This document shows, piece after piece, positions 3,890 through 30,100 of a stretch of 64,000 nucleotides of DNA. The DNA comes from Halalkalibacillus sediminis (GTDB taxonomy: Bacteria; Bacillota; Bacilli; Bacillales; Alkalibacillaceae). Below the pieces are notes generated by a model. The model made no database searches, had not been told where the DNA came from, and saw only the letters and a list, made by a program, of their open reading frames with translations. How positions within the stretch are numbered: position 1 is the stretch's first letter; each line of letters begins with the position of its first letter. The stretch lies in the NCBI RefSeq assembly GCF_002844535.1, contig NZ_PJNH01000002.1, forward strand, positions 248,001-312,000, given 5' to 3'. The position numbers and the translations under genes are program-made.

Positions 3890-4828
3890 ATGGGATCGAG
3901 AAAAGAACTAAGAAAACAAAAAAGCGGGAAGAAAAAATGGCTATGGATCATCCTTAGTCTGCTTGGGCTAATCATATTAGCTTTAGGTATTTACTTCATT
4001 TATTTATACGATAAAGTTGGAGACACTGTAGAAACGATGTATACACCTTTGGAATCTGATTTAGAGAAAAAGGATGAAATTGACACGCGTTTAGACAATG
4101 AAGATCCGATAAACATCCTATTACTTGGCGTAGATGAGCGAGAAGGAGATGTTGGTCGATCAGATACGATGATATTAGTTTCTCTGAATCCAAACACTGA
4201 TAAGATGTTGATGTTCAATATTCCTAGAGATACTTATGTAGAGATTCCAGGTAGAGGAATGGATAAAATTAACCACTCATATGCATTCGGTGGCTCAGAA
4301 CTATCCGTAGAGACAGTAGAACAGTTTTTAGATACTACCGTACACTTTTATTCCAGAATTAATATGGAAGGCTTACAAGACGGAGTAGACGCTTTAGGAG
4401 GCGTTACCGTCAACAACGATCAGGCTTTCAGTCATGGAGGTCACGATTTTCCGACTGGAGAAATTACTTTAAATGGTGAGCAGGCACTGATCTATTCCCG
4501 AATGAGAAAAGAAGACCCTCGGGGGGATCTTGGACGTAACTCAAGGCAACAGGAAATCATCGATGCCATGATTGATGAAGGTACTTCATTCGATTCGTTT
4601 ACCAAAGTAGATAACATGTTAGACGCAGTAGGGTCGAATGTACAGACAAATATGCAGATGCCTGAAATGCGAAAAATGTTTTCAGACTATCGAGATACTA
4701 GAAATGAAACCATCAAAGAAGAAATAGATGGCTCGGGGCAGATGATGGATGGTGTTTGGTACTACATGGTTCCTGATGAAGAAGTGAACAGAATCAGAAC
4801 ATTACTAGATGAACATATGAAAGAATAA
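3890..4828 (+). CDS. LytR-CpsA-Psr (LCP) family cell-wall glycopolymer ligase, paralogue
   Basis: A 312-residue paralogue of the protein at 1793-2728, closely similar through the whole LCP domain. It has a basic start (MGSRKELRKQ), a membrane helix at about residues 17-40, then INILLLGVDEREGDVGRSDT, FNIPRDTYVEIPGRGMDKIN and RMRKEDPRGDLGRNSRQQ. A GAGAGGGA ribosome site precedes the ATG. It probably attaches teichoic acid or another glycopolymer to peptidoglycan outside the membrane. Two adjacent copies could serve different polymers, for example teichoic acid versus the exopolysaccharide made further right. It ends at a bidirectional terminator shared with tagB. Confidence 0.92.
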   Translation: MGSRKELRKQKSGKKKWLWIILSLLGLIILALGIYFIYLYDKVGDTVETMYTPLESDLEKKDEIDTRLDNEDPINILLLGVDEREGDVGRSDTMILVSLNPNTDKMLMFNIPRDTYVEIPGRGMDKINHSYAFGGSELSVETVEQFLDTTVHFYSRINMEGLQDGVDALGGVTVNNDQAFSHGGHDFPTGEITLNGEQALIYSRMRKEDPRGDLGRNSRQQEIIDAMIDEGTSFDSFTKVDNMLDAVGSNVQTNMQMPEMRKMFSDYRDTRNETIKEEIDGSGQMMDGVWYYMVPDEEVNRIRTLLDEHMKE

Positions 4829-4831
4829 TTG

Positions 4832-4874
4832 AAAAAGGAAGTAGAACTGAAAATCAGTTGCTACTTCCTTTTTT
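4832..4874. terminator. bidirectional terminator between LCP gene and tagB
   Basis: AAAAAGGAAGTAG at 4832-4844 pairs with CTACTTCCTTTTT from 4861; the inner AACTG/CAGTT extends the stem around an AAAAT loop. It has a T-run on both strands and lies at the meeting point of two converging genes. Confidence 0.9.
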
Positions 4875-6023
4875 ATAGATTTCACTTATTAATTTTTGAG
4901 AAGCATGCCCGTCGTTATACTGATTCCACTTATCTGAGAAGTGTCGAAGCTCCTCCAAGTCGAAATCATTCTCTTTGATTAGACGTATGATATCGTCAGT
5001 GTTATCTGCAATGGGCCCAGGTACAAGAAGGTCATAGTCCTCCCAAAATCCTCTGGACTGTTTGTATTCATCTAAATCGTATGGGTAGAAAATCATTGGC
5101 TTCTCTAACAGTGAGAATTCAAAAGGAATAGATGAATAGTCCGTAATTAAATAATCCGTTATAAATAATAAATGATTCGCATCCGGATATTCTGATACAT
5201 CAATGATAAAATCAGGATAATTGTTATTGTAACCTTTTAAAATGGCTGGATGAAGCCGAATGAGTAGAACGTGATCTTCCTTAAGTTCTTGGTAAATCTT
5301 CTTAATGTCAAGTTTTATTGAATGCTTCTTGAGCTGTTGATCTCTAAAGGTGGGAGCGTATAAAATCACTTTATTGCCTGAAATCATTGGATATTTTTCA
5401 TTTAACTCTTCACTAATTTTCTCTTTCAAAGGTTCATCATAAAAAATATCAGTTCTAGGTATACCTGTTTTCAGCATTACTTCTTTTTCTACATAAAAAG
5501 CTTCTCTGAAAATGTCTTCCATTCTGTCCGACCCCACGGTAATATAATCGAATCTTTTGTATACGCTGCGAAACCTCTTGTAAGCCTTCTCACTTCGAAA
5601 TCGAATGGAAGGATCCTTTAACCCAAACCGTTTAATGGCTCCATTAGCATGCCACAATTGAATACACTTTACATTTTCTTTGAATGGAGTAGCAGCTAAT
5701 AAACCATAGTAGTTATCAATAAATACAACTTTGCAAGTGGCTAAATGATAGACCCCCTTGATGAAGCCTCTGAAGTTCTTTGCAAAATCAAATTTAATTA
5801 CTGAAGTACGCCTATCCTCTTCAAATTCACCCTTGGTTCCAGGCAATTGTAAAATTACAGTTTCATGATCTGTTTCTCTTAATACTTTTTCCCAAACGAA
5901 AAAAACATTATCCCCAAAAGAAGAAATGAAGACAGTCTTCTTCCTCTGAGGGGATAATTTAAATAGTATAAACGTTATTTTCACTGAAAAAAGATATAAG
6001 ATTATAGCTAACTCTCTAACCAT
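4854..6023 (-). CDS. tagB: TagB-type teichoic acid primase (CDP-glycerol glycerophosphotransferase)
   Basis: A 389-residue protein with a hydrophobic N-terminal segment (about residues 1-25) and the glycerophosphotransferase domain. Key marks are CIQLWHANGAIKRFG, YAPTFRDQQ, LLIRLHPAIL with the second catalytic-type histidine, and [16 protein letters not shown]. The 'WHANGAIK.FG' form is characteristic of TagB/TarB, which adds the first glycerol phosphate to the ManNAc-GlcNAc lipid disaccharide made by TagO and TagA. The length matches B. subtilis TagB (about 380). It overlaps the tagD end by 8 bases, so the two are translationally coupled and TagD's CDP-glycerol feeds this enzyme directly. 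Confidence 0.9.
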   Translation of the reverse strand: MVRELAIILYLFSVKITFILFKLSPQRKKTVFISSFGDNVFFVWEKVLRETDHETVILQLPGTKGEFEEDRRTSVIKFDFAKNFRGFIKGVYHLATCKVVFIDNYYGLLAATPFKENVKCIQLWHANGAIKRFGLKDPSIRFRSEKAYKRFRSVYKRFDYITVGSDRMEDIFREAFYVEKEVMLKTGIPRTDIFYDEPLKEKISEELNEKYPMISGNKVILYAPTFRDQQLKKHSIKLDIKKIYQELKEDHVLLIRLHPAILKGYNNNYPDFIIDVSEYPDANHLLFITDYLITDYSSIPFEFSLLEKPMIFYPYDLDEYKQSRGFWEDYDLLVPGPIADNTDDIIRLIKENDFDLEELRHFSDKWNQYNDGHASQKLISEIYKKGSSN

Positions 6024-6417
6024 TGTTCACCTTATTATTTAAGTCATCTTTTATTTTAGTAGTAGAAATTCCGTCAGTACGTGGTAGATAGATAACTTCA
6101 CAATGTTCTTTAAGGAAGTCGAATTTCCCCTCCCAGTCATGTCCCATTACAAACAAGTCAATATTGTGTTTACGGACGTCATCAATCTTTTGCTCCCAGT
6201 TATGTTCAGGGATGACTTCGTCCACATATTGCACTGCTTCAAGAATAGTTTTTCGATCTTCAAATGAGTAGTAAGCTTCTTTGTTTTTAAGAGCGTTGAA
6301 TTCGTCTGATGAAACTGCGACGACAAGGTAATCTCCAAGCTCTTTAGCTCTTTTTAATATATTTATGTGACCTACGTGTAATAAGTCAAACGTTCCGTAG
6401 GTAATTACCTTCTTCAT
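6016..6417 (-). CDS. tagD: glycerol-3-phosphate cytidylyltransferase
   Basis: A 133-residue nucleotidyltransferase with GTFDLLHVGHINIL (the HxGH signature) at the start, MGHDWEGKFD, and RTDGISTTKI near the end, which is the second nucleotide-binding signature. It converts CTP and glycerol 3-phosphate to CDP-glycerol, the donor for poly(glycerol phosphate) teichoic acid. The start has a strong AGGAGG ribosome site. A promoter with a 17-base spacer lies just upstream at 6461-6489. It is the first gene of a tagD-tagB operon, the order known from B. subtilis divergent tag operons. Confidence 0.96.
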   Translation of the reverse strand: MKKVITYGTFDLLHVGHINILKRAKELGDYLVVAVSSDEFNALKNKEAYYSFEDRKTILEAVQYVDEVIPEHNWEQKIDDVRKHNIDLFVMGHDWEGKFDFLKEHCEVIYLPRTDGISTTKIKDDLNNKVNNG

Positions 6418-10620: not shown

Positions 10621-11817
10621 ATGAATTTCCTAAAGAAAAAAATTTTCAATTTTCTCAGAAGTAAACGAGCATTAAAATATTTTAAGTTAGTTTTTAAAAC
10701 AGTAGGGAAGTTACCTAAAAAGAAAGACTTAGTTGTGTTCGAAAGTTTCCATGGGAAACAGTATAGCGATAGTCCACGGGCAATTTATGAATATATGAGG
10801 GAATACAATAAAGAAGCAATACTTATTTGGAGCGTTGATAGGAGGAGTTTGAAACTATTCGAGGAATTGGGCTTACCTCATGTTCGCCGTTTTTCTATCA
10901 AATGGTTCTTAACTATGCCAAGAGCGAAGTATTGGGTTAACAATGTAAGACTTCCGAACTGGTTACCAAAACCTAATGATACGATTTATGTACAGACTTG
11001 GCACGGGACGCCTCTAAAAAGATTAGGGATCGATATTGAGGAAGTGCATATGCCCGGTACGAATACTGATAAATATAAAAGGAATTTCACGAATGAGTCT
11101 AAGAATTGGAACTACTTGATATCTCCCAACAGGTATTCTACTGAAATTTTCAAACGAGCTTTTGACTACAGTGGGAAGGTTATTGAAAGTGGTTACCCAA
11201 GAAATGACTTTCTTTCGAACCATACTGACCAAGACATTTATGAAATAAAAAGTAACTTGGGTATCTTCGAAGATAAAAAAGTTATTTTATACGCCCCTAC
11301 ATGGAGAGATGACCAATTTTATAGTAAAGGTAAATACCGTTTTGATATAAAATTAGATTTGTCGTTACTTCAAAAGGAATTAGGTAATGATTATGTAGTG
11401 TTATTGAGAATGCATTATCTTATTGCTGAAAATTTAGACTTAGCTGATTTTGAAGGTTTTGCATTCGATGTATCCAAACACCTAGATATAAGAGAGCTAT
11501 TTGTCATTTCAGACCTATTGATCACAGATTATTCTTCGGTATTTTTTGATTTTGCGAATCTAAGAAGACCGATTTTGTTTTATGTATATGACTTGGAAAG
11601 ATACGAGAACACTTTGAGAGGGTTCTACTTTGACTTTAAAAATGAAGCTCCTGGTCCGTTAACAATGACCACACGGGAAACTATTGATGCAATAAAAGGT
11701 TATGAAGCAAATGGTTTTGAGCTGGAAACTCATTTCGAGGAATTTTATAAACGTTTTTGTTACTTAGAAGATGGAAAAGCGACTGAACGTGTAGTTCAAG
11801 AATTTTATCAGTACTAA
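10621..11817 (+). CDS. CDP-glycerol glycerophosphotransferase (TarF/TagF-like)
   Basis: A 398-residue single-domain polymerase-family enzyme. It shows TWHGTPLKRLGID with the first histidine, YAPTWRDDQFYSKG, LLRMHYLIA (histidine present but the usual following proline is replaced by tyrosine) and [17 protein letters not shown]. The form 'TWHGTPLKRLG' is typical of TagF/TarF/TarL enzymes that extend poly(glycerol or ribitol phosphate). The N-terminus is strongly basic, as in peripheral membrane members. It sits 87 bases before tagG, so polymer extension and export are probably co-transcribed. Acting on the main chain or adding a short primer are both possible. Confidence 0.87.
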   Translation: MNFLKKKIFNFLRSKRALKYFKLVFKTVGKLPKKKDLVVFESFHGKQYSDSPRAIYEYMREYNKEAILIWSVDRRSLKLFEELGLPHVRRFSIKWFLTMPRAKYWVNNVRLPNWLPKPNDTIYVQTWHGTPLKRLGIDIEEVHMPGTNTDKYKRNFTNESKNWNYLISPNRYSTEIFKRAFDYSGKVIESGYPRNDFLSNHTDQDIYEIKSNLGIFEDKKVILYAPTWRDDQFYSKGKYRFDIKLDLSLLQKELGNDYVVLLRMHYLIAENLDLADFEGFAFDVSKHLDIRELFVISDLLITDYSSVFFDFANLRRPILFYVYDLERYENTLRGFYFDFKNEAPGPLTMTTRETIDAIKGYEANGFELETHFEEFYKRFCYLEDGKATERVVQEFYQY

Positions 11818-11904
11818 AATCACTTGAAAAAGCTTTGAAAATGTTAGATAATACAGTTTGCTAAACTTATGAAATGTTTTATATGCGAGAAAGAAGGAGT
11901 TTTA

Positions 11905-12711
11905 ATGCGTTCAGCAATAACAGTCTTTTCCGAACAGATCAAGTACTTTTATTTAGTGAGAAGGTTATCTGCATACGAGCTTAAAAGTAATAATTCAAGT
12001 AATTATTTAGGAATTTCTTGGGAGATAATACAACCAGCTATTCAAATAGCAATATTCTGGTTTGTTTTTGGGTACGGTATCAGGCAAAGAGCCGATGTAG
12101 GAGACGTTCCATTCTTCCAGTGGATGCTTGCGGGTATTGTAGTTTGGTTTCTGATTAGCCAAGGAATATTGAAAGGTACGAAATCGATCCATCAAAAGGT
12201 TAAAGTTCTATCTAAGATGAACTTTCCAATGAGTGTTATTCCTAATTATGTAATATTTGCTCAATTTTATCCACACCTTCTTTTACTAGTAATTGTGTTG
12301 ATACTAATGCAGTTCATCGGTTATCCGATTAGTATATATTATTTGCAATTGCCTATATATACATTTGGTGTGATAGCAATTTTATTCAGTGTTACGTTAA
12401 TTACCTCTACACTGGCGACAATTGCTCAAGATGTTCAAATGTTCATTCAATCTATAATGAGAATGCTTCTTTACTTATCACCGATTCTATGGCCACCTCA
12501 GGTTTTACCAGATTGGTTATTAACAGTTATGAAAATCAATCCATTCTTTTATGTTGTAGAAGGGTATAGACAATCCATATTAGGTGGGGAATGGTATTTC
12601 ATCACTAATTGGGAGTATTCGATTTATTTTTGGTCCATGGTAATAGTTCTCTTTATAATGGGCTCATATTTACACGTGAAGTTCAGAAAACATTTCGTGG
12701 ATTTCTTATAA
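11905..12711 (+). CDS. tagG: teichoic acid ABC exporter, permease subunit
   Basis: A 268-residue ABC-2 type permease with about six membrane segments. The sequence SNYLGISWEIIQPAIQIAIF and the cluster YLSPILWPPQVLPDW then INPFFYVVEGYRQSIL are typical of TagG/TarG and polysaccharide exporters. With TagH it moves completed lipid-linked wall teichoic acid across the membrane. The ATG at 11905 has AAGAAGGAG 5 bases upstream; the longer frame from 11869 would add an unlikely cysteine-rich tail. It is followed 16 bases later by tagH. Confidence 0.93.
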   Translation: MRSAITVFSEQIKYFYLVRRLSAYELKSNNSSNYLGISWEIIQPAIQIAIFWFVFGYGIRQRADVGDVPFFQWMLAGIVVWFLISQGILKGTKSIHQKVKVLSKMNFPMSVIPNYVIFAQFYPHLLLLVIVLILMQFIGYPISIYYLQLPIYTFGVIAILFSVTLITSTLATIAQDVQMFIQSIMRMLLYLSPILWPPQVLPDWLLTVMKINPFFYVVEGYRQSILGGEWYFITNWEYSIYFWSMVIVLFIMGSYLHVKFRKHFVDFL

Positions 12712-12727
12712 GAAAATAGGTGTAAGC

Positions 12728-13507
12728 ATGTCAAAAGCAGTTATAGTGGAAAATATATCAAAGAAATATAAGTTATATGGAAGAAAGTTGCATAGGTTAT
12801 TAGATTTAATTATCCCTGGTAAATCTTATGGTGACGATTTTTATGCGCTTAGGGACGTATCCTTCGACGTAGATAAAGGTGATATAGTTGGTTTTATAGG
12901 TGTGAATGGATCTGGTAAATCAACTTTATCTAATATAATCGCTGGAGTAGTGCCACAAACATCAGGGGAACTTACAGTTAATGGCCAAACAGCTTTGATA
13001 GCTGTGAATGTAGGCCTCGATCGTAAGTTGACTGGTAGGGAAAATATTGAGCTTAAGCTTCTGATGCTAGGTTTCAGCATGAAAGAAGTAAAGCAGATGC
13101 AAGACTATATTATTGAGTTCTCTGAACTAGGAAAATTCATTGATCAACCAGTAAAGACATACTCTAGTGGTATGAAATCGCGTTTGGGATTCTCAATATC
13201 TGTAAGTATCGATCCTGATATATTAATCATCGACGAGGCATTATCGGTTGGAGATAAAGCTTTTTCAGAAAAAAGCTTTGCCAAAATGAGAGAATTTAAA
13301 GAGGCTGGTAAGACGATGTTCTTTGTCAGTCACTCGATGGGACAGATGAAAAAGTTCTGTGAGAAAATTGTGTGGCTCGAATTTGGTAAAATCAAAATGT
13401 ACGGAGATGCCTCAGAAGTATTACCAAAGTACGAAGCTTTCTTAGATGACTATAAAAATATGAGTAAAAAAGAGAAAAAAAAGTATAGAAAGAAAGCCGA
13501 AAATTAA
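12728..13507 (+). CDS. tagH: teichoic acid ABC exporter, ATP-binding subunit
   Basis: A 259-residue ATPase with Walker A GVNGSGKST, signature YSSGMKSRLGFS, Walker B ILIIDEALSVGD and the switch histidine in FVSHSMGQM. The short form matches S. aureus TarH rather than the 527-residue B. subtilis TagH. The lysine-rich tail (MSKKEKKKYRKK) is unusual. It powers export of wall teichoic acid with TagG. The next gene on the same strand is a sulfotransferase, about 50 bases on, with no terminator between. Confidence 0.94.
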   Translation: MSKAVIVENISKKYKLYGRKLHRLLDLIIPGKSYGDDFYALRDVSFDVDKGDIVGFIGVNGSGKSTLSNIIAGVVPQTSGELTVNGQTALIAVNVGLDRKLTGRENIELKLLMLGFSMKEVKQMQDYIIEFSELGKFIDQPVKTYSSGMKSRLGFSISVSIDPDILIIDEALSVGDKAFSEKSFAKMREFKEAGKTMFFVSHSMGQMKKFCEKIVWLEFGKIKMYGDASEVLPKYEAFLDDYKNMSKKEKKKYRKKAEN

Positions 13508-13559
13508 ATTGATTGCATTTAGATTCTAATTTCTAATGAGAGAAATGAGTGTAGTGAAA

Positions 13560-14474
13560 ATGAGGAAAACAATTTATCTGCATTTGGGATATCATAAAAC
13601 TGCAACGACCTTTTTACAGAAAAAGATATTCTCCAAATTAAAAGAAGTTAGATATATTAAGCATAAGCCAATCAAACAAGAGCTTTATGATTTAAGAGTG
13701 AGAAAACTAAGTGAAGATCGAGTAAAAGAAATACGAAATAAGTTTGACTCTTTAGGCAAAGAAAATCGCCCTACCTTAATTTCTTATGAGGGGTGGTCTG
13801 GAAGTCCCTTTAAAAGAGCAAAACCCAAAAAAAGCGTTAAAATATTAAAAGATCTAAGAAGAGTTTTCCCTGAAGATTTATATGATGTCAGAATCATTAT
13901 AGGTATCAGAGAACAAGTCCAGTTAATTACATCTTTATATATCCAACACTTGCACATGGGTGGAACACAGAAAGTAGAAGATTATATCCAGAAACTAGAA
14001 GATCATGAGGTGTTGGACCAATATAAATATAACGAATACTTGAATAGTGTTGAAAAGGTATTTGGTATGAAGCCTTATGTACTCATATATGAAAATCTAA
14101 GAAAAGATGAAAATGAGTATCTACTGCAGCTCCTTAATTATATGGGTGTCAATAAAATACCCAAATATACTCAGGATGAAGTGAATAAAAGTTATGGTGT
14201 TCTGCAGGCAAAGCTAGCAAGAAGACTGAACAAAGTTTTCAAAACTAAACAAAATCCGGATGGGAAAATTAGAGTAAAAAAATCTAAGCGCTTTGGCAAA
14301 AAAATCTCTCCTAGGACTTTGTTGCAAAATAAGATCAGTTTTAAAATCCATTATAAAAGATATACACTTCCAAAAGAAATACAAGGAGATTTAAAAGCTA
14401 GATACTTGGAAGATAACCTTAAGCTTAACGAGAGAGATGAGATAAGTTTACCGGGAAATTACTTTCATAATTGA
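13560..14474 (+). CDS. PAPS-dependent sulfotransferase-like protein, teichoic acid locus
   Basis: About 304 residues, cytosolic, no signal peptide. The N-terminus IYLHLGYHKTATTFLQK is a clear 5'-phosphosulfate-binding loop of the sulfotransferase superfamily. The later stretch VRIIIGIREQVQLITSLYIQ matches the 3'-phosphate-binding strand with arginine and serine. The C-terminal third is very basic (KKSKRFGKKISPR). The start is uncertain (13536, 13545 or 13560); 13560 puts the binding loop near the N-terminus, as is usual. It follows tagG-tagH on the same strand and ends at a terminator, so it probably belongs to their operon and could sulfate teichoic acid or its linkage sugars before export. 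PAPS would come from the sat-cysC operon at 25.7-29.3 kb. Confidence 0.78.
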   Translation: MRKTIYLHLGYHKTATTFLQKKIFSKLKEVRYIKHKPIKQELYDLRVRKLSEDRVKEIRNKFDSLGKENRPTLISYEGWSGSPFKRAKPKKSVKILKDLRRVFPEDLYDVRIIIGIREQVQLITSLYIQHLHMGGTQKVEDYIQKLEDHEVLDQYKYNEYLNSVEKVFGMKPYVLIYENLRKDENEYLLQLLNYMGVNKIPKYTQDEVNKSYGVLQAKLARRLNKVFKTKQNPDGKIRVKKSKRFGKKISPRTLLQNKISFKIHYKRYTLPKEIQGDLKARYLEDNLKLNERDEISLPGNYFHN

Positions 14475-14482: not shown

Positions 14483-14512
14483 AAAGAACCAGTTAGATTA
14501 CTGGTTCTTTTT
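14483..14512. terminator. bidirectional terminator after the sulfotransferase gene
   Basis: AAAGAACCAG at 14483-14492 pairs with CTGGTTCTTT from 14501 around an 8-base loop, with T-runs on both strands. It separates two converging genes. Confidence 0.88.
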
Positions 14513-15658
14513 GTATGCGAATAAATATTCCTCAGCCACTTTTTCAACGGTATGATTAGATAATACATGTTCATATGCATTGTGAGTTAATTTTTCCCTC
14601 AGTTCTTGATCATTCAATATTGAACGGATATGAACAGCCAACTCTACAATGTTTCTGTCTGAGAATAGCAGGCCATTCTCATTGTGAGTTATTAACTCCT
14701 TCAACCCTCCGACAGCTCCCGCAATTACTGGAGTTTTTGAAAGCATCCCTTCTAGTGCTGAGATCGATGTGGCTTCCTCTACACCCTTTGAATGTATGCT
14801 CGGCACTACCACGATGTTTGATAATTGGTATAGACTGGGCATTAATTGATGAGGGACGGAGCCTAGTAAACGTACTTGTTGTTTTAAATCCAACTGGAAA
14901 GTTAGTTGTTTAAGTTTATCCATCATTTCACCTGTACCAGCATAGACTAGCAATATATCCGGGTATTCGGTAATCAACTTTTCTAATGCTAGTAACGGGT
15001 AAATCACCCCGTTCTTTTCAGTCAATCTTCTCGGTACAAGAATGATTTTTTTGTTGTCAGGGAGGTTGTATTCGACCCTTAATTTGTTTGTTACATTGTT
15101 AGTTGATGTAAAACCTGATGGATCTATGAAGTTCTTTATTACGGTTGGTTCAATCTTAGTATTTCTTTTAACATGCTCCTTGAGTCTGTTGTCTACACAG
15201 ATAATTTCACCAGCTGATTCATAGGCTTCTTTTTCATAGTCGATTGCTTTCTTGAAAAATGGACTTCCTTCTTTCAGTGCCCCTCTGCTCGTTGCTTCAT
15301 ACGAGTAATACCCGTGAAGAGTCAGCACGACATTGTCATGAATTCTTTGCGCAGCAATTGTCGCGAAGATATCTTGAGTGTTAATCACATCATAGCTTCC
15401 AGCGATTTTTCTCAAGGCAAGTTTCAAGGCATTCATTCTGCCTAGGTCTCCATATAGTTGACCTGCACCAACAGACAGTCTGTTCATAAGATAACCACAG
15501 CCTTTAATAGAGGTTTGAATAACCTTATTTATGTCACTCGAAGATAAGACAGTTACCTGATGGCCGGATTTTTCCAATCCCTTTTTTAACATGGAAATAT
15601 GCGTGGACATTCCACCTTCATGTGGATACTGGAAAATAGTGGTTAATAATATTTTCAT
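14498..15658 (-). CDS. glycosyltransferase family 4
   Basis: A 386-residue GT-B glycosyltransferase. The N-terminal FQYPHEGGMSTHISMLKKGL acceptor-side motif, VPRRLTEKNGVIYPLLAL at the start of the donor domain, and the nucleotide-sugar motif EATSISALEGMLSKTPVIAG are GT4 features. It lies three bases from the MurJ-like gene upstream on the same strand, and with the O-antigen-ligase-like gene beyond forms a three-gene set for building, flipping and polymerising a lipid-linked glycan. The sugar is unknown. Confidence 0.85.
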   Translation of the reverse strand: MKILLTTIFQYPHEGGMSTHISMLKKGLEKSGHQVTVLSSSDINKVIQTSIKGCGYLMNRLSVGAGQLYGDLGRMNALKLALRKIAGSYDVINTQDIFATIAAQRIHDNVVLTLHGYYSYEATSRGALKEGSPFFKKAIDYEKEAYESAGEIICVDNRLKEHVKRNTKIEPTVIKNFIDPSGFTSTNNVTNKLRVEYNLPDNKKIILVPRRLTEKNGVIYPLLALEKLITEYPDILLVYAGTGEMMDKLKQLTFQLDLKQQVRLLGSVPHQLMPSLYQLSNIVVVPSIHSKGVEEATSISALEGMLSKTPVIAGAVGGLKELITHNENGLLFSDRNIVELAVHIRSILNDQELREKLTHNAYEHVLSNHTVEKVAEEYLFAYKKNQ

Positions 15659-15660
15659 TA

Positions 15661-18593: not shown

Positions 18594-19322
18594 ATGGAAA
18601 AACTAAACCATGTTGAAATATTAGGTGTCCCATTCCTAAAAAGTACTAAAAATCATTTTCTAGAAAATGAAATAGTACCTGCTATCAAAAGTGATGAAAA
18701 ACGTTTCATCATTACTGCTAATCCGGAAATCGTCATGCATGCATATAATGATGAGAGCTACAAAACCATTATGAATCAGGCTGATTATGTAATTGCTGAT
18801 GGAATTGGTATTATTATTGCCTCAAAAATCAAAAAAAATCCCTTACCGGAGCGGATTCCTGGTTTTGAATTAATGAATGATTTGTTGATTTTCGCTAATA
18901 AGGAAAAGCTAAAAGTATACTTCTTCGGTGGAAAAGAGAAAGTTCTCAATCATTCAGTTGAAAATATAAGAAATAAATTTTCAGATCTTAAGGTGGTAGG
19001 GTCTCATCATGGATATGTAGATTTGGATGATGAAGAAGTTATAAACCAAGTAATGGATGCGAGGCCAGACATTGTTCTAGTAGCCCTGGGGTGCCCAAAG
19101 CAGGAAGAATGGATAGATCAAAACAAGGACAAACTACAAAAAGGGATTTTGATGGGAGTTGGAGGAAGTTTTGATGTTTGGGCTGGAGAAACACGAAGAG
19201 CGCCTGAATTTTGGATTAAGCTGAACTTGGAATGGTTATACAGATTGATCAAACAACCAAGTAGGATGAGGAGAGTGCTCAAACTGCCACAATTCATCAT
19301 ACATGTTTTAAGGGGAAAATAA
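18594..19322 (+). CDS. tagA: N-acetylmannosaminyltransferase of the teichoic acid linkage unit
   Basis: A 242-residue WecG/TagA/CpsF family enzyme. Conserved features are RFIITANPEIVMHA, YVIADGIGIIIASK with the catalytic-type aspartate, RIPGFELMNDLL, YFFGGKEKV, LVALGCPKQEEWI and GVGGSFDVWAGETRRAPEF. It transfers ManNAc from UDP-ManNAc onto undecaprenyl-PP-GlcNAc, the second step of wall teichoic acid synthesis, at the inner membrane face. AAGGGAT precedes the ATG. UDP-ManNAc epimerase (mnaA) is not in the window; its product would also be needed by the WecC-like dehydrogenase at 42653. Confidence 0.95.
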   Translation: MEKLNHVEILGVPFLKSTKNHFLENEIVPAIKSDEKRFIITANPEIVMHAYNDESYKTIMNQADYVIADGIGIIIASKIKKNPLPERIPGFELMNDLLIFANKEKLKVYFFGGKEKVLNHSVENIRNKFSDLKVVGSHHGYVDLDDEEVINQVMDARPDIVLVALGCPKQEEWIDQNKDKLQKGILMGVGGSFDVWAGETRRAPEFWIKLNLEWLYRLIKQPSRMRRVLKLPQFIIHVLRGK

Positions 19323-20466: not shown

Positions 20467-20557
20467 AAAATGTTAAGACATTGTAAAGAAATATATACAG
20501 AAATCGACATTTATTGTGATAGAATGTTCCTTAGGACTGAAAATTGAGGTGACACAC

Positions 20558-21619
20558 ATGTCCTTTTTAGATATGATCATTGCATTTATAATTACATTCA
20601 TAATTACTATTATCATTACCCCCTTGATAATCAAGGCTAGTAAGAAATTTGGGGTAGTCGACAGACCTAATGATCGGAAAAAGCATAATGGTGAAATTCC
20701 TTTATTAGGAGGCTTAGCCCTAATTCTGCCGATAACCATTGGGCTTATTTGGTTACAGCCAGAACACCCTCAATTATTTGCTATTTCATTAGGCGCCTTG
20801 TTAATCATAACGATAGGTGTAGTTGATGATTTATATTCAGTTAAACCAGTTGTTAAATTATTTGCTCAGATTACAGCTTCTATAATGGTGATTGCTGCTG
20901 GGTTAAAAATTGAATTTTTAACGATCCCTTTTATGGGGAGTGTGGACTTGGGAGTCTGGAGCTACATCATTACCGTACTTTGGATTGTCGGAATCACTAA
21001 TGCAATCAATTTAATAGACGGATTAGATGGTTTGGCTGGGGGAGTATCTGCAATTGCCTTCCTAAGTATGTTCGTTATGGCCATCACTGATGGTGTAACC
21101 ATTGTCATAATCCTAAGTATCTTATTCATTGCTGCATTATCCGGTTTTCTAATATATAATTTTTATCCTGCAAAAATCTTTTTAGGGGATACTGGTTCTC
21201 TTTTTATAGGTTATTCGATTGCGGTAGTGTCCATGTTGGGACTATTTAAAAATGTAACGCTTTTCAGCTTCATTATTCCAATTGTTATGCTATTAATTCC
21301 GATTTGCGACACAATTTTTGCGATCATACGAAGAGCTATTAATAAACAGCATATAATGACGGCAGACAGGAAACACATTCATTACGTATTATTGGAAATG
21401 GGCTTTAGCCACCGGGCCACTGTCCTAATGATGTATGCATTTAGCGCGTTTTTTGGGGCTATGGCAATAATCTTTACCAATGCTACGATGATTCTGTCGT
21501 TATTCATCATGGCCTTTGTGATACTAGCTTTACATCTTTTGGCTGAGCTGACGGGTGTAGTCCAAGGGGGCAGGACACCAGTTCTTAACCAGCTGAAAAG
21601 GTTGCTTAACCCAAAATAA
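20558..21619 (+). CDS. tagO: undecaprenyl-phosphate GlcNAc-1-phosphate transferase
   Basis: A membrane enzyme of about 353 residues in the MraY/WecA/TagO family, with about ten or eleven membrane segments. It shows VDRPNDRKKH, the magnesium-binding VVDDLYSVKP, NAINLIDGLDGLAGGVS, FLGDTGSLFIGY and the cytosolic ADRKHIHYVLLEMGFSHR histidine loop. It starts wall teichoic acid by placing GlcNAc-1-phosphate on undecaprenyl phosphate. The ATG at 20558 with TTGAGGTG upstream is preferred over the longer frame from 20516. A hairpin with a weak T-run follows. Confidence 0.95.
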   Translation: MSFLDMIIAFIITFIITIIITPLIIKASKKFGVVDRPNDRKKHNGEIPLLGGLALILPITIGLIWLQPEHPQLFAISLGALLIITIGVVDDLYSVKPVVKLFAQITASIMVIAAGLKIEFLTIPFMGSVDLGVWSYIITVLWIVGITNAINLIDGLDGLAGGVSAIAFLSMFVMAITDGVTIVIILSILFIAALSGFLIYNFYPAKIFLGDTGSLFIGYSIAVVSMLGLFKNVTLFSFIIPIVMLLIPICDTIFAIIRRAINKQHIMTADRKHIHYVLLEMGFSHRATVLMMYAFSAFFGAMAIIFTNATMILSLFIMAFVILALHLLAELTGVVQGGRTPVLNQLKRLLNPK

Positions 21620-21728: not shown

Positions 21729-24542
21729 TTGAATATCAAAACAATTTTGAAGAGAGTTTACAGAAAAGCCGTTGCCTTAAAAAAATCTAGAAATCAAATC
21801 TCAGTTGAAAATGTCTACCTTGAAAATGGTATATATTTTATTCAAGTCAAAAAAAATAAATTCAATGGAAAGATTTTTAAGAAGAATTCTTCACTTATTT
21901 TTTCCGACAAAGTAAAAGAGGTAGAGTTGCCGCTTATTCTAAAACACATTAAAGATAATTCATACGTACTTCCGGTCAAATTGAAAGATTTACCTGAAAT
22001 AAAAAAAGACGAGACAAATTGGCATATAAAATTACTTTATCAAAAGTCTAAACCTAAGAAATTCTCATTTGTAGTAGGTAAAAAATTGAAGCGGTACTTG
22101 CATACACAAAAATTCTTTGAGGATGGACAAACCTATTCATTAAAAGCTACACGCCATAATAAATTGATGATTAATCATTTTGATCAGAAAAATACAGAAG
22201 ACATCAAGCACCTAATCAACAATGTCCATAATTTGAGGGAGGAAGAGGGTTATCTATTAATAAGTGGAGACTTCATCGGGGAACAATTCCTGTTCACTCA
22301 ACCATTTGACGGAATCAAACTAGTTTCTCATTCCAGAGGATCCAGAATGAAACAGGAGTATAGAGTAGAAATGATTGGTGATGCCCAGTGGACGGTAAGA
22401 ATCCCTTATGAAGATTTTCCTAGTTCTAAAACTATTCTGGATTTTTATTTCCTTTTATTCAAAAATAATCAGGAATTTAGGTTCAGGGTGAAACTGATTG
22501 ATGATTTTGGTGTCTCAGATAGAAAGTTCATAGTCGACCACGATAAAAAAGGAGCTATTGAATATACACCTTATCAAACAGAGCTCTACTCATTGTCCAT
22601 CAAATCTGATGTTAAAACGATAAAACTTAACAGCCTCGAGGTAGATGAGAGCCCTGATTCATATATTATTACTGGGCGTATCAAGAAGAAGTACAATCTG
22701 GTTCGACCAGAAGTAGTATTTAAAAACCGCGATAGCGAAAACTTCATCAGCTTTACTGCTGAATTAAGAACTGATCAGAATTTTCATTATTTCTCTGCGG
22801 AAGTATCTAAAGAAGTACTGTTTAATGATGAATTAGTTATATATGATATATACATGTCAGATTTTGTTGAAGGGAACAGGATTAAATTCCGTTTAAAACG
22901 AAAGTCCACAAATTTAAAATGGGACACTATCAAAGAGTTTTTCGACGGCAACAACTTTTATCAATCTTTTTTCTATTCCACTGAATTCGGAAACCTTTCA
23001 TATGGGATAGTGAAACCTTCAATATCTAAAAAGGTAGATCATGCAATTATAAAAGATAACAATGTAAAGATTAAAGGTGAAGCGTATATAGAACGTGAAA
23101 ACGTGGAAGATATTTCTCAACAGCAGCTAATGGTAGTCTTTATGAATAGGGAATCTGAAAGAGAAATAATATGTACTCAAGAAGGAAATAAAATTGATGT
23201 CTCCTATCCATTAGAAAAGATATCTGATCTTATCGCACAACCCAAGGATATTGTTGACATTTATATAAGGGTACAAATCAACGGGTTCATGAATCAAAGA
23301 AAACTTGGCTTGGACGAGTATGATTACTTAAAGGATGATTACCTTGCAAAGGGTTTTATTGAGGGTGCTACAAACTCAATTCAAATGTTCATGACACTGA
23401 CTCCCTACGGGAACGTTAAATTAGAAACTCAAAGCTATCCTAATGAGTATTTCCAATTACTCGAGCAATCATCTTTAGATGGCACATCAGGTGATATTTG
23501 GTTGATAGGGGAACGACCGGATACCGCTCAGGATACAGGTTATCATTTCTTTAAGCATTTGAGAGAACACCACCCTGAGATTGAAGCTTATTATGTAATT
23601 GAACAGGATTCTGAAGATGAAAAGAATGTTGCTCGCTTTGGTAATGTATTACACCTCGGAACTGATGAGCACATCAATAAGAGCCTTCAGGCTAGTGCGT
23701 TCTTCTGCTCGCATGACATTGAATACATTTTGCCGTTCAAGGGCAAAGACATGGTCAATTACAGAAACGGATTGAGAGTCTTCTTACAACACGGTGTCTT
23801 AGGTAGAAAGAATGTTGAGTATCATAAAATTTATTATAAATACCCTTTTAATATGGTGTGCGTCAGCTCGGAACCTGAGAAAGACCTTGTAGTCGAAAAA
23901 TTGAAATATGAAGAAGAAGAAGTTGTTGTAACTGGATTGTCAAGATTCGACAACTTATTTGAAACCACTGAAGAGAATAGAATTCTTTTGATTCCGACAT
24001 GGAGGCAGTGGCTTAATACCACTGAGACATTCAAAGAATCGGAGTACTGGTCAAGATATCTTTCGCTATTAGCGAATGAGAGGTTGTTATCACTGTTAGA
24101 GAAACATGATTTAATTCTTGATTTTTACCCTCACTACCGAATGCAACAATTCATTGAGGAGAGTAACATAGTTCTCGATTCCAAAATTAATTTAATAAGA
24201 TTGGGTGAGGTTAATGTTCAAGATCTATTAAAGCGGAGTGAACTAATGATTACTGACTTTTCTAGTGTGTCATTTGATTTTAATTTCATGCACAAACCTG
24301 TCATGTTCTATCATTTTGACTTCAGAAGGTTTTTCGCAAGAGGGATTCTTCGTCCTAAAAATGAAACATTTCTAGGGGATATTGCTACTTCAGAGGAAGA
24401 GTTAGTGGACCGAATTCAAGAGAGTATTGAAAAAGGTTTCCAGGAAAAAGAAGAAGTTGAAACAAAAAGGGATCAGATTCTTGCGCATACAGATAATGAA
24501 AACAGTGAAAGAATATTTCGAGCAGCAAACAAATATTTATAA
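21729..24542 (+). CDS. large TagF-like CDP-glycerol:poly(glycerophosphate) glycerophosphotransferase
   Basis: A 937-residue protein. The first ~590 residues are mostly beta-rich and charged with no recognisable catalytic motif, probably substrate-recognition or membrane-binding modules. The last ~330 residues are the glycerophosphotransferase domain: GDIWLIGERPDTAQD, FLQHGVLGRKNV (HG kept, but the tryptophan of the usual WHG is absent), LIPTWRQWLN, LDFYPHYRMQ and LMITDFSSVSFDFNFM. It is longer than B. subtilis TagF (about 746). It begins with TTG behind AAGGAGAG and ends at a strong terminator. It probably builds or modifies the main teichoic acid chain; a different polyol phosphate donor is possible. 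Confidence 0.82.
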   Translation: MNIKTILKRVYRKAVALKKSRNQISVENVYLENGIYFIQVKKNKFNGKIFKKNSSLIFSDKVKEVELPLILKHIKDNSYVLPVKLKDLPEIKKDETNWHIKLLYQKSKPKKFSFVVGKKLKRYLHTQKFFEDGQTYSLKATRHNKLMINHFDQKNTEDIKHLINNVHNLREEEGYLLISGDFIGEQFLFTQPFDGIKLVSHSRGSRMKQEYRVEMIGDAQWTVRIPYEDFPSSKTILDFYFLLFKNNQEFRFRVKLIDDFGVSDRKFIVDHDKKGAIEYTPYQTELYSLSIKSDVKTIKLNSLEVDESPDSYIITGRIKKKYNLVRPEVVFKNRDSENFISFTAELRTDQNFHYFSAEVSKEVLFNDELVIYDIYMSDFVEGNRIKFRLKRKSTNLKWDTIKEFFDGNNFYQSFFYSTEFGNLSYGIVKPSISKKVDHAIIKDNNVKIKGEAYIERENVEDISQQQLMVVFMNRESEREIICTQEGNKIDVSYPLEKISDLIAQPKDIVDIYIRVQINGFMNQRKLGLDEYDYLKDDYLAKGFIEGATNSIQMFMTLTPYGNVKLETQSYPNEYFQLLEQSSLDGTSGDIWLIGERPDTAQDTGYHFFKHLREHHPEIEAYYVIEQDSEDEKNVARFGNVLHLGTDEHINKSLQASAFFCSHDIEYILPFKGKDMVNYRNGLRVFLQHGVLGRKNVEYHKIYYKYPFNMVCVSSEPEKDLVVEKLKYEEEEVVVTGLSRFDNLFETTEENRILLIPTWRQWLNTTETFKESEYWSRYLSLLANERLLSLLEKHDLILDFYPHYRMQQFIEESNIVLDSKINLIRLGEVNVQDLLKRSELMITDFSSVSFDFNFMHKPVMFYHFDFRRFFARGILRPKNETFLGDIATSEEELVDRIQESIEKGFQEKEEVETKRDQILAHTDNENSERIFRAANKYL

Positions 24543-25689: not shown

Positions 25690-25722
25690 TGACAACAGAG
25701 TTCAGAGATGGGGAGGCATATA

Positions 25723-26880
25723 ATGACACAAACAATCAAAGCTCACGGTGGCTCATTAGTTAACCGTGAAGTAAAAGGAACTAAGAGAGATAAAGCATTA
25801 AATGATGCTAAGAATCTTAAATCATTAACAATTTCAAACTGGGCAATCTCAGATTTGGAATTAATCGGTATAGGCGGGTTTAGTCCACTTGAAGGTTTTA
25901 TGGGAGAGAGAGACTACAAAAGCGTAGTCAATAACATTCGTCTTGCAGATGGTTCTGTATGGAGTGTTCCTATTACATTATCCGTAACAAATGAGCAGGC
26001 TAAAGAATATGGTCTAGGCGAAGAAATCTCACTTAAAGGTGAAGATGGGATAACATACGGTACTATGGTTGTCGAAGAAAAATATACTTATGACAAAAAA
26101 TTAGAAGCAAATAATGTGTACGGAACTACAGATGAAGCTCATCCCGGTGTGAAGAAATTGTATGAGCGTGGAGACATTTATCTAGGGGGACCTATCACAT
26201 TATTGAACCGTCCAGACCATGGGGATTTTGATGAGTTTTACATGGACCCAGAAGAAACACGAAATATGTTCAAGGATCTTGGGTGGAAAACGGTTGTAGG
26301 TTTCCAAACGCGTAATCCGGTTCACCGTGCCCATGAACATATTCAGAAAACGGCTTTAGAAGCGGTAGATGGCTTACTTCTTAACCCATTAGTGGGGGAA
26401 ACTAAATCTGATGATATCCCGGCTGACGTTCGCATGGAAAGCTATCAGGTTATTTTAGATAACTATTATGTTAAAGACCGTGTACGCTTAGTAATCTACC
26501 CTGCAGCGATGCGTTATGCCGGGCCTCGTGAAGCGATTCTACATGCGATTGTGCGCAAGAATTATGGTTGTACACACTTCATTGTTGGTCGTGACCATGC
26601 TGGTGTGGGCGATTACTATGGAACATATGATGCACAAGATCTGATTGCTCAGTTTGAAGAGGAATTAAATATGACGATTTTTAAATTTGAACATGCTTTT
26701 TACTGCACAGTTTGTGAGAACATGGCTTCAGCTAAGACATGCCCACATGATAAAGAGAATCACGTTCACCTGAGTGGTACAAAAGTTCGTGAATTACTAC
26801 GTAATGGAGAGCGTCCACCGAAAGAATTTTCTCGCCCAGAAGTGGCTGATGTTTTAATTAAAGGTATGGAACAAAACTAA
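25723..26880 (+). CDS. sat: sulfate adenylyltransferase (ATP sulfurylase)
   Basis: A 385-residue homo-oligomeric-type ATP sulfurylase. It has the N-terminal PUA-like part ([27 protein letters not shown]) and the catalytic part with [15 protein letters not shown] (the QxRNPxHxxHE signature), [12 protein letters not shown] and the [11 protein letters not shown] tail; [17 protein letters not shown] provides metal-binding cysteines. It makes adenylyl sulfate from ATP and sulfate. The ATG at 25723 follows GGGGAGG. The gene leads an operon with a transporter, APS kinase and PAP phosphatase, so the product is PAPS. No PAPS reductase or sulfite reductase is nearby. Confidence 0.96.
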
Positions 26881-26893: not shown

Positions 26894-28678
26894 ATGACTT
26901 TCGAGATGGTATTCGTATCAATCATCATACTAACCATGTTAGTCGGGCTGCTGTTAGAGGTTGCCCGACCTGACATGGTTGTTTTTTCAGCATTGACATT
27001 ATTTTTGCTAACTGGAATTTTAACACCTGAGCAAGCCCTTAAAGGTTTTTCTAATGAAGGGATGCTGACGATCGCACTATTGTTCATAGTTGCTGGAGCA
27101 GTTCAAAAGAGTGGAATGGTGGACCGGTTGATGAAGAATTGGCTGGTGAATACAAAGTCAATTAAGGGCATGACTGGTAGGTTTTTTGCGCCGGTTTCAA
27201 TGTTTTCAGCATTTTTGAATAACACACCGATTGTTGTGACATTCACTCCGATTATTAGAGATTGGTGCGAGGAAAAGGGAATAGCTCCTTCAAAGTTTCT
27301 CATTCCTTTATCTTATGTGACTATACTAGGTGGAACGATCACTTTAATGGGGACCTCAACGAACTTGGTCGTCCATGGCATGTTAAAAGACTATGGATTT
27401 GAAGGTTTTGCATTTTTTCAGTTAGCTATAGTAGGAGTCCCGATTACACTTGTGGGTTTAGTCTACTTATCTACAATTGGCTATAAGTTGTTGCCATCGT
27501 ATAAAGGTTTTCATGAAAGAGTGAAAGAGGATTCTAGAAAATATATAGCAGAGCTAACTGTGGAAGATGATTTTCCCTACCTGAATCAATCTGTAAAAAA
27601 AGCGGGATTAAGAGATTTAAAAGGCTTGTACTTAATTGAAATTATGCGATCAAACGAAATTGTTTCTCCTGTCAGATCAACAACAATCATTCAATCTGGA
27701 GATCGATTAATTTTCACCGGTCTAATTTCAACAATTGCAGACCTAGAAAAAATCAGAGGTCTTCATTTAGAAACTGGCTCACATTTGAAATTAGAAGATT
27801 TGAAGAATGGTAATGGGGAAACGCAATTGGTTGAAGCAGTGGTCTCCCATCAATCATCCTTACTAAGTAAAACGATTAAAGAATCCAAGTTTCGATCAAA
27901 GTTTGATGCAGGGGTTATAGCTGTGCATCGAAATAATGAGCGAATCAAAAGTAAGATCGGTGATATTCGGTTAAGACCTGGCGACACACTTTTACTGTTA
28001 ACAGGGGCGGATTTTGTAGCTAAAAACCAACAATCAAATGATTTTTATGTGATATCTTCTCTTGATACTCCCAAAGAGTTGAATGAAGACCCCCTTAAAG
28101 GTTGGCTTGCAATAGGCGTCCTCATTAGTATGATTTTGTTAGTGACGCTTGGTTTCTTGAGCATGTTCAAAGCGATGGTCTTAGCAGTTTTGATTCTTTT
28201 AGTTGGTAAGATTATAAGTCCTGAAGAAGCGAAGGGCTACATCCAATTTCACGTCTTATTACTGATTGCAAGTGCAATAGGTGTTGGAGCTGCAATAACT
28301 AGTACTGGATTAGCAGACTTCGTAGCTGAGAATGTTTTATCTTTTGTCCAACCACTAGGGATATTAGCTGTTATTCTTGTCGTATATTTCTTGACGAATA
28401 TCTTTACTGAAATGATTACAAACGTTGCAGCTGCAGTTTTAATGCTGCCAATAGGATTAGAAATGGCTAATCAGTTAAATGTGGACCCTATGGGTTTTGC
28501 TGTTACTATAGCCATCGCTGCTTCAGCTAGTTTCATCACTCCCATTGGCTATCAAACCAACCTAATAGTGTATGGTCCGGGAGAATATAAATTCTTAGAT
28601 TACTTTAAAGTGGGGTTCCCTTTAAGTATAATAGTAATGGTAGTAACTACATTAATAATTTACCAAGTATGGTTTTAG
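26894..28678 (+). CDS. SLC13/DASS-family transporter with TrkA-C domains, likely sulfate importer
   Basis: A 594-residue membrane protein. An N-terminal block of membrane segments contains the SNT-type signature ([18 protein letters not shown] and [14 protein letters not shown]). Two soluble RCK_C/TrkA-C domains follow at about residues 212-290 and 305-375. A second membrane block carries [18 protein letters not shown] and [20 protein letters not shown]. This architecture is used for sodium-coupled sulfate or dicarboxylate uptake. Position 13 bases after sat and 10 before cysC makes sulfate the obvious cargo. Confidence 0.85.
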
Positions 28679-28688: not shown

Positions 28689-29294
28689 ATGAGTAAAGCA
28701 TCAAATATAGTGTGGCACGAATCAAACGTAACAAAGGAAGAAAGACAGAAAATGAAAGGTCATAGTAGTGCAGTGATTTGGTTTACAGGGCTCTCTGGGG
28801 CTGGGAAATCCACTGTATCAGTTGATTTAGAAAAAGAGCTTCATAAATTAGGGGTACATACATACCGTTTGGACGGAGATAATGTACGTCACGGATTGAA
28901 CAATAACTTAGGGTTCAGTGCAGAAGACCGTGCGGAAAACATCCGTCGAGTAGGTGAAGTATCAAAACTCATGGCTGATGCCGGCCTGGTAACTCTATCT
29001 GCATTTATTTCTCCATATCGAGAAGACCGTGATAATGTTCGAAAAATGATGAACGAACAAGAATTTGTTGAAGTATACGTAAAGTGTGATTTAGGTGTCT
29101 GTGAGGACCGTGACCCTAAAGGCCTCTATAAGAAAGCACGTGCTGGTGAAATTAAAGGGTTTACAGGGATCGATGACCCATACGAAGAACCGAATAAACC
29201 CGAAATAACTGTTGAAACAGACAAGCATTCCGTAGAAGAATGTGTGAAACAAATTGTCGATTATTTAAAACAAAACGGATATTTGGGAGAATAA
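28689..29294 (+). CDS. cysC: adenylyl-sulfate kinase
   Basis: A 201-residue kinase with P-loop [48 protein letters not shown] and [13 protein letters not shown], all signature regions of APS kinase. It phosphorylates APS at the 3' position to give PAPS, the sulfate donor of sulfotransferases. AGGAGG precedes the ATG. It sits between the transporter and cysQ with spacings of 10 and 2 bases, so all four genes form one transcription unit. Confidence 0.97.
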
Positions 29295-29296
29295 CC

Positions 29297-30100
29297 ATGA
29301 AAGACAGTATTCAGTTAGAGAAATTATTCCATGTTGTTTTAAAAGCAGGGCAAGAGATCATGGGGATCTATCAAAAAGATTTCAATGTGGAGTACAAAGA
29401 AGATGACTCTCCATTGACAGAAGCTGATCAAAAAGCTCATCAAGTGATTGAATCAGAGTTGAAACAACATTACCCAAGTATACCTATATTGAGCGAGGAA
29501 GGGGCCAGTGTCCCTTTTAGTGAAAGAAAAGAATGGAGTCAATTCTGGTTAGTCGATCCTTTGGATGGAACGAAAGAATTCATTAAAAAGAATGGTGAAT
29601 TCACTGTAAATATTGCCCTGATTGAAGAAGGTTACCCTTCAATTGGATTTATCTATGCTCCCGCATTAGATACTGCATATTTTGGGGTGGTTGGCCGAGC
29701 TTCATTTAAACTCGAACAAGCATCTAAACATAACGTTCTTTCAGAGTTAGATTTAATTGAAAAAAGTACAAAACTACCGTCCGTTCAAAACAAAGATGAA
29801 GTCTTTGTTGTTGCTAGCCGATCACATATGTCTAAAGAAACAGAGGACTTCGTTAATCAATTAAAGGAAGAGCACCCATCAGTTAATACGATTTCATCAG
29901 GTAGTTCACTTAAATTCTGTTTAGTTGCTGAAGGGAAAGCGGATTTTTACCCAAGATACGCTCCTACGATGGAATGGGATACAGGTGCTGGCCAAGCAAT
30001 AGCAGAAGCAGCTGGAAAAGAAGTTGTTCGCTATGAAGACGGAGAACGTTTTTATTACAATAGAGAAAACCTGACAAATGGTTGGTTTTTAGTGAAGTAA
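29297..30100 (+). CDS. cysQ: 3'(2'),5'-bisphosphate nucleotidase (PAP phosphatase)
   Basis: A 267-residue magnesium phosphatase of the inositol monophosphatase superfamily: LSEEGA, VDPLDGTKEFIKKNGEFT and WDTGAGQAIAEAAGKEV are the metal and substrate motifs. It hydrolyses PAP, the inhibitory by-product of sulfotransferases (or PAPS reductase), to AMP. The ATG at 29297, two bases after the cysC stop and behind GGGAGA, is preferred over the overlapping longer frame from 29240. Its presence with cysC fits a cell with heavy PAPS use. Confidence 0.95.
   Translation: MKDSIQLEKLFHVVLKAGQEIMGIYQKDFNVEYKEDDSPLTEADQKAHQVIESELKQHYPSIPILSEEGASVPFSERKEWSQFWLVDPLDGTKEFIKKNGEFTVNIALIEEGYPSIGFIYAPALDTAYFGVVGRASFKLEQASKHNVLSELDLIEKSTKLPSVQNKDEVFVVASRSHMSKETEDFVNQLKEEHPSVNTISSGSSLKFCLVAEGKADFYPRYAPTMEWDTGAGQAIAEAAGKEVVRYEDGERFYYNRENLTNGWFLVK

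Follow-up and report, generated by a model that had tools for sequence, protein, structure and literature searches.

A predicted sulfotransferase gene behind tagGH in Halalkalibacillus sediminis suggests a sulfated wall teichoic acid

We analysed a stretch of 64,000 nucleotides from Halalkalibacillus sediminis (contig NZ_PJNH01000002.1, positions 248,001 to 312,000; hereafter the window) and in particular a gene that we call ST1, which stands directly behind the teichoic acid exporter genes tagG and tagH and very probably encodes a sulfotransferase using 3'-phosphoadenosine 5'-phosphosulfate (PAPS). Its place beside tagGH suggests, rather than proves, a sulfated teichoic acid. Four open reading frames follow one another on the plus strand, at 10621-11817 (398 amino acids), 11869-12711 (280), 12728-13507 (259) and 13536-14474 (312), and a hairpin stands behind them:

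10621..11817, plus strand: TarF-like CDP-glycerol glycerophosphotransferase, 398 amino acids (PF04464, 436.8 bits; NCBIfam NF041712 TarF, 481 bits, under its cut-off of 550)
11905..12711 (listed frame from 11869), plus strand: TagG-like permease of the teichoic acid exporter (PF01061 ABC2_membrane, 58.5 bits, and position)
12728..13507, plus strand: TagH, ATP-binding subunit of the teichoic acid exporter (NCBIfam NF010066, 348.2 bits, over its cut-off of 320)
13560..14474 (listed frame from 13536), plus strand: ST1, very probable PAPS-type sulfotransferase (homologs, profiles, motifs and fold model)
14483..14510, no strand assigned: terminator hairpin (perfect arms of 11 nucleotides, 14483-14493 and 14500-14510, and a T run)

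The initial annotation had described this row of a TarF-like gene, tagG, tagH and a sulfotransferase-like gene on one strand, and its coordinates and gene calls are right except for two starts. TagG probably begins at the ATG at 11905, preceded by a AAGAAGGAG-like ribosome site, and ST1 at the ATG at 13560, the start position of its homologs; the spacing between TagH and ST1 is 28 or 52 bases, depending on the ST1 start. That the row ends at one terminator was also borne out. The hairpin is strong (-15.9 kcal/mol, z -4.6, with one of 200 shuffles equally good), although absent from the list of a consensus terminator scan, and the convergent glycosyltransferase gene at 14498-15658 ends there as well, so that the terminator is common to both directions.

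Is ST1 a sulfotransferase, as had been proposed? By itself, the window copy finds no family in Pfam (E 0.1), NCBIfam (E 0.01) or PHROGs, and reaches only 13.3 bits with PF13469, below the cut-off of 27. An ortholog with 71% identity (L003; G and L numbers are our labels for genomes and loci) scores 25.5 bits with PF00685 (cut-off 22), and the homolog L032 scores 36.9 bits with PF13469 and 30.3 bits with PF00685. Three of ten scanned homologs (these two and L036) exceed the cut-off of one model or the other and seven stay below. We aligned 16 of the 21 intact close copies (alignment A2, omitting those of G176, G094 and G290 and one each from G310 and G386); at E<=1, PF13469 is touched by 14 of these 16 members and PF00685 by eight. 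The family is thus mostly missed by Pfam, and the window copy by NCBIfam too, so that annotation may overlook it. Searched against PDB sequences, the 16-row profile returned 17 matches at E<=10, of which 16 are sulfotransferases (best E 0.0068). With hhalign, ST1 aligned to ST2, an alignment that pairs the second sulfotransferase of the window with a relative, at a probability of 85.5 (E 5.7e-6), against 0.5 for CysC, the one control.

The residues expected to contact PAPS are kept. An HKTAT loop, whose Lys and Thr we take to be 5'-phosphosulfate contacts at the positions they hold in SULT enzymes, is conserved in all 16 rows, and the five unaligned close copies also begin with HKTAT. An R-x7-S motif, presumably PAPS-contacting as in SULT enzymes, is likewise present in 16 of 16 rows; its D is found in nine, the window ST1 having Q there. 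In the available text of PMC11625862, the 3'-phosphate motif is given as RXXXDXXXS.

The predicted fold points the same way. An AlphaFold model of ST1 (predicted local distance difference test, pLDDT, 70.0; predicted template modelling score 0.66) has as its top Foldseek match 3rnl, a sulfotransferase of Alicyclobacillus acidocaldarius (E 4.3e-5; VIA-align Z 16.3; 15% identity to ST1), which we take to be a Bacillota enzyme. With VIA-align, the best match is heparan sulfate 3-O-sulfotransferase 5 (3bd9; Z 17.5, root-mean-square deviation 3.6, 223 residues aligned), and all of the best 50 rows listed are sulfotransferases, if Teg12 and Teg14 are counted as such, as we assume. Heparan sulfate 3-O- and N-sulfotransferases (for the latter, N-deacetylase/N-sulfotransferase domain 1nst, Z 15.7) and 3rnl lie at Z 15.6-17.5, protein-tyrosine and small-molecule enzymes at 12.2 or lower; the heparan sulfate 2-O-sulfotransferase (4ndz) reaches only 9.6, level with the small-molecule enzymes. 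3bd9 and 1nst share 12-13% identity with ST1 and are animal enzymes acting on glycosaminoglycans; their comparison with ST1 is one of overall fold. Several points call for caution: the alignment behind the model was shallow (eight rows, three partial), an earlier five-row model was poor (pLDDT 47.9) and was kept out of the structure search, the Foldseek template modelling scores are modest (0.45/0.54 for 3rnl), and of 620 Foldseek matches at E<=10 just two are at E 0.001 or better, with P-loop kinases lower in the list. Together with the missing family match of the window copy, these kinases could be taken to mean that ST1 is some other P-loop enzyme or a degenerate copy. We consider this highly improbable in view of the intact frame, the full-length identity of 49-71% to four orthologs, the homolog profiles, the hhalign result, the fold and the conserved PAPS motifs, all of which support the earlier call of a PAPS-type sulfotransferase.

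ST1 has no segment of membrane-helix grade (Kyte-Doolittle, best 19-residue mean 1.07) and is therefore expected to act in the cytosol before export, in agreement with the order of steps first suggested, sulfation ahead of TagGH. Its calculated isoelectric point is 9.89, and those of 20 close copies are 9.39-9.79. A basic protein without a membrane segment would fit, as weak evidence, a cytosolic enzyme handling a polyanion. More distant relatives turned up elsewhere: a small ST1-like sulfotransferase frame on a viral contig (L077:2983-3675), the sole one from a scan of viral contigs, and seven distant records in a tblastn search of plasmids, two of them annotated as sulfotransferase.

How widely is ST1 associated with tagGH? 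Matches were found in six of 22 genomes of the window's family and in 18 of 397 genomes sampled evenly across the order; 16 of these 18 are close (identity >=43%) and two distant (G072, 29%; G078, 27%). Leaving out the two distant ones and adding G009 and G015 from the family search gives 18 genomes with a close ST1. In seven of them, from two families, ST1 lies on the contig of tagGH, at 0.03-0.05 kb in the window, 2.2 kb in G302 and in G379, 4.5 kb in G006, 9.6 kb in G017, 10 kb in G009 and 44 kb in G003. In a tree of all 21 intact close copies and the two distant ones, the eight linked copies from these seven genomes form one clade (support 99/95), so the link probably goes back to one ancestral association, retained through several rearrangements. 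G015, a Piscibacillus, was excluded from the linkage counts: its ST1, at the end of a contig, is split over two frames, and tagGH is on another contig. The initial annotation had proposed to test a tagGH-sulfotransferase pair across genomes. The pair is conserved as a neighbourhood (same contig in seven of seven clade genomes) but not as an operon, ST1 being immediately behind tagH in the window only, among the seven testable genomes of the clade.

Gene order around the linked copies varies. ST1 lies across PAPS genes from tagH in G006 and immediately after a TagF relative in G017, and the order in G302 and G379 is TarF-TagG-TagH-PQQ-ST1, with a gene for a PQQ/BamB-like beta-propeller between tagH and ST1 (L064:17575-18945 in G302; L063:200-1438 in Virgibacillus litoralis). 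G302 carries tandem ST1 duplicates (L064:19256 to L065:1219), which share 56% and 54% identity with the window copy. A fusion of a family 2 glycosyltransferase (GT2) with TarF, of about 700 amino acids, stands beside ST1 in G006, G009, G017, G003, G379 and G302 and partly in G015 (judged by BLAST label and length, with domains checked in G006); it was considered as a required partner of ST1 and rejected, as it is not seen in the window. Nor did we keep the presence of tagGH as proof of a link with ST1. A TagG relative was found in all 17 ST1-bearing genomes searched, and TagH in 168 of the 397 order-sample genomes, including 16 of 16 with a close ST1 against 152 of 381 others, uncorrected for descent. 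The corresponding Fisher p values (7e-7 by genome, 8e-4 by genus) ignore descent, and two f35 genomes without ST1 (G329 and G368) also have TagH.

The region of the window around the run contains further genes for the making and anchoring of wall teichoic acid:

3890..4828, plus strand: LCP (TagU-like) glycopolymer ligase (TIGR00350, 148.1 bits, cut-off 62.3; TagU model, 365.6, cut-off 441)
4854..6023, minus strand: TagB/TarB-like glycerophosphotransferase (PF04464, 275.7 bits; NF041711, 205.5 bits, cut-off 500)
6016..6417, minus strand: TagD, glycerol-3-phosphate cytidylyltransferase (TIGR01518, 197.9 bits, cut-off 165.4)
18594..19322, plus strand: TagA-like N-acetylmannosamine transferase (TIGR00696, 200.1 bits, cut-off 69; TarA model, 258.6, cut-off 350)
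20516..21619, plus strand: TagO/WecA-like N-acetylglucosamine-1-phosphate transferase (PF00953, 143.6 bits, cut-off 27; TIGR02380, 160.1, under its cut-off of 326)
21729..24542, plus strand: large TagF-like protein, 937 amino acids, with a C-terminal glycerophosphotransferase domain (PF04464, 108 bits, residues 589-932)

The exporter is recognized by the TagH equivalog, which is over its cut-off, and by TagG through PF01061 and its place. For CDP-glycerol supply and glycerophosphotransferases, TagD and PF04464 exceed their cut-offs and the TarB and TarF equivalogs match below theirs; for the linkage and LCP enzymes, the PF00953, TagA superfamily and LCP domain matches are over cut-off and the exact equivalogs WecA, TarA and TagU below. 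The large TagF-like protein has no NCBIfam match at 1e-10. A further PF04464 protein is encoded at 384-1490 (194.9 bits), which brings such proteins in the window to at least four (384, 4854, 10621 and 21729).

A set of genes that would make PAPS and remove its by-product, adenosine 3',5'-bisphosphate (PAP), stands 11 kb downstream of ST1 on the same strand:

25708..26880, plus strand: sat, ATP sulfurylase (NF003166, 591.4 bits, cut-off 387)
26894..28678, plus strand: SLC13/DASS-like anion permease with TrkA_C domains (PF03600, PF00939, PF02080; TIGR00785, 121.7 bits, under its cut-off of 198.6)
28689..29294, plus strand: cysC, adenosine 5'-phosphosulfate (APS) kinase, which makes PAPS (TIGR00455, 294.1 bits, cut-off 138.7)
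29294..30100 (listed frame from 29240), plus strand: cysQ, PAP phosphatase (TIGR01331, 285.2 bits, cut-off 228.8)

The permease is a probable sulfate importer, as far as its sequence can tell its substrate. A search for PAPS reductase gave no match in the genome of the window (99% complete) at E 0.001, with a model that matches 14 of 14 controls; this PAPS pathway is therefore unlikely to feed sulfate reduction through that enzyme. Among the 16 other ST1 genomes, PAPS reductase was not found in G009 and G379, and G006 has a weak match. APS kinase was detected in all 16 of the other ST1 genomes searched, but 11 of 14 controls have it too, and it occurs in 15 of the 22 genomes of the window's family, with or without ST1. 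ST1 ends 42 bases from cysQ, convergently, in G006, and about 1 kb from cysQ in G009. In genus g69, cysQ comes after ST1, in the same direction, in all four genomes sampled, and tagGH orthologs were not found nearby; at these loci (L066, L067-L068, L071-L072 and L073-L074), a MocA-like oxidoreductase comes after ST1-cysQ in the two tested, G201 and G176. Behind cysQ in the window, a short helix-turn-helix frame (30268-30630, PF13518) is possibly a transposase remnant.

The ST1 clade thus sits amid genes for wall teichoic acid, and genes for PAPS are often close by. We regard wall teichoic acid or its linkage unit as the most likely acceptor, modified before export by TagGH. ST1, predicted to be a soluble, very basic, PAPS-dependent glycan sulfotransferase, would use in the cytosol the PAPS derived from the nearby sat-permease-cysC genes, and would sulfate a hydroxyl of the undecaprenyl-linked glycerol-phosphate chain, on a chain sugar, on glycerol or on the linkage sugars. 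TagGH would then export the sulfated chain, the LCP enzyme would join it to peptidoglycan, and CysQ would clear the PAP by-product; such a polymer may have a role in salty habitats. The broader proposal is that halophiles in two or more families of Bacillales make, through a module of sulfate import, PAPS synthesis, ST1 and PAP removal placed in the teichoic acid locus, a wall teichoic acid that is a polyanion of both phosphate and sulfate, modified in the cytosol ahead of TagGH. We hold the chances of this proposal to be even.

Several observations weigh against teichoic acid as the acceptor. An unlinked distribution in relatives had been named beforehand as something that would speak against the proposal, and in ten of the 18 ST1-bearing genomes (G035, G094, G152, G176, G201, G269, G290, G310, G322 and G386) ST1 is on another contig or some 300 kb or more from tagGH; on the other hand, the clade of seven testable genomes is linked. 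In draft genomes, unlinked means on another contig with no tagGH ortholog labelled in the fetched stretch (at most about 20 kb per side), and in G035 and G176, where the contig ends close to ST1, a link could lie past that end. As for PAPS supply, G015, whose genome is 82% complete, gave no match to APS kinase. A strong PAPS reductase is present in 13 of the 16 other ST1 genomes, and there the PAPS genes fit assimilation as well. The window's genome has two more sulfotransferases, so that its PAPS genes need not serve ST1. These two rule out ST1 as sole PAPS user in the window, a role that, judged by PF00685, is possible only in G302, G152, G176 and G290, where this model finds nothing, ST1 included.

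Could ST1 then act on another surface polymer of the region? One candidate is the product of an adjacent Wzy-MurJ-glycosyltransferase set on the minus strand at 14498-18556; our guess is that this product resembles teichuronic acid. Against the teichuronic TuaC model, whose cut-off is 550, protein 14498 reaches 101.5 bits, and a Wzy_C domain is present in 17135-18556. In G009, and in the broken copy of G015, ST1 lies co-directionally behind this set and not behind tagGH, 82 and 33 bases, respectively, from the ortholog of 14498. The other candidate is the exopolysaccharide of a cluster at 32-60 kb of the window; the ST1 of G003, 44 kb from tagGH, is closer to exopolysaccharide genes. The placements in G009, G015 and G003 are the strongest evidence for an acceptor of this sort. 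The best structural matches of ST1 include enzymes that sulfate long glycans. Moreover, five genomes of the clade have other sulfotransferase genes in the vicinity of ST1, at 11 kb in G017, 18 kb in G003, 19 kb in G006, 21 kb in G379 and 38 kb in the window, so a different sulfated polymer may be what the region serves. Against these five we set G009, where the single other sulfotransferase found is on another contig beside its own APS kinase. In G302, PF00685 finds no other sulfotransferase, but it also misses ST1 there, so hidden ones could exist.

In the window itself, the Wzy-MurJ-glycosyltransferase set is convergent with ST1, and the exopolysaccharide cluster has two sulfotransferases of its own. 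In G017, G302 and G379, ST1 stands among tag genes, and no ortholog of 14498 or of the Wzy protein 17135 is labelled within the 34-40 kb examined. Flippase- or Wzy-type genes are nonetheless present: G302 has a flippase at a distance of 7.5 kb and, on the opposite side, an O-antigen-ligase-type gene at about 16 kb, and G017 a flippase relative about 10 kb from ST1. On balance we find another surface polymer, above all a neighbouring one of Wzy type, a less likely acceptor than wall teichoic acid, though its foremost rival.

The unlinked copies, four of them paired with cysQ, would also agree with a different role, in which ST1 acts on a lipid, a lipoteichoic acid glycolipid or a small molecule and its proximity to tagGH is merely an inherited neighbourhood. 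The linked members, however, form one clade and keep company with the same tag genes in several arrangements, an argument that the neighbourhood is under selection, and the TagH counts given above, subject to the same reservations on descent and on G329 and G368, lean in that direction. This second alternative thus appears improbable to us.

What is new here is not the sulfotransferase superfamily, which is known, but the placement of ST1 at a teichoic acid locus. Known tailoring of teichoic acids consists of D-alanylation and glycosylation, which mostly lower or mask charge; D-alanylation takes place outside the cell. The proposed sulfation would likewise modify teichoic acid but, in contrast to D-alanylation, would add negative charge and be attached in the cytosol. 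If it is real, pre-export sulfate would be a new class of teichoic acid decoration, would raise the question of whether TagGH and LCP enzymes accept sulfated chains, and could account for part of the wall chemistry of brine bacteria. None of the literature matches listed describes a sulfated teichoic acid, subscription journals and preprints lying outside that search.

Two partly comparable systems are on record. According to the available text of PMC11766843, Cobetia marina KMM 1449 has, like the window, genes for an ATP-binding cassette-exported glycan, PAPS genes and sulfotransferase genes together; its cluster comprises cysN/C, cysD, cysQ, a sulfate permease and sulfotransferase genes, and the structure of its sulfated capsule has been solved. 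As far as that text goes, four functions are common to both: ATP sulfurylase, sulfate permease, APS kinase and PAP phosphatase. The Cobetia system is a Kps-type capsule of a Gram-negative organism (PMC11766843, same text), whereas the window encodes a Gram-positive TagGH and a single-subunit sat and is known from genes alone. In Actinoplanes missouriensis, wps-1 is, as here, a Gram-positive surface-polymer cluster with predicted sulfotransferases, but of Wzx/Wzy type; the available part of PMC13390465 names no teichoic acid genes there, and sulfation is a prediction in that case as well.

Other parts of the window also bear on its surface chemistry. The two additional sulfotransferases are Pfam-positive tandem genes (52658-53500 and 53535-54512) within the exopolysaccharide cluster, whose product is a likely second sulfated polymer of the same genome. 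Two modules that resemble each other, at 31925-34189 and 58164-60362, flank this cluster, with a CpsB/CapC phosphatase (PF19567, tested for 31925), a ParA-type tyrosine-kinase-like ATPase and a Wzc-like protein; the second module and the Wzc-like parts were judged by eye. Finally, the frames at 6577-9153 and 54998-58126 encode large SH3-repeat proteins, one with a terminal M14 zinc carboxypeptidase domain and the other with a glucosaminidase domain, both likely to act on the wall.

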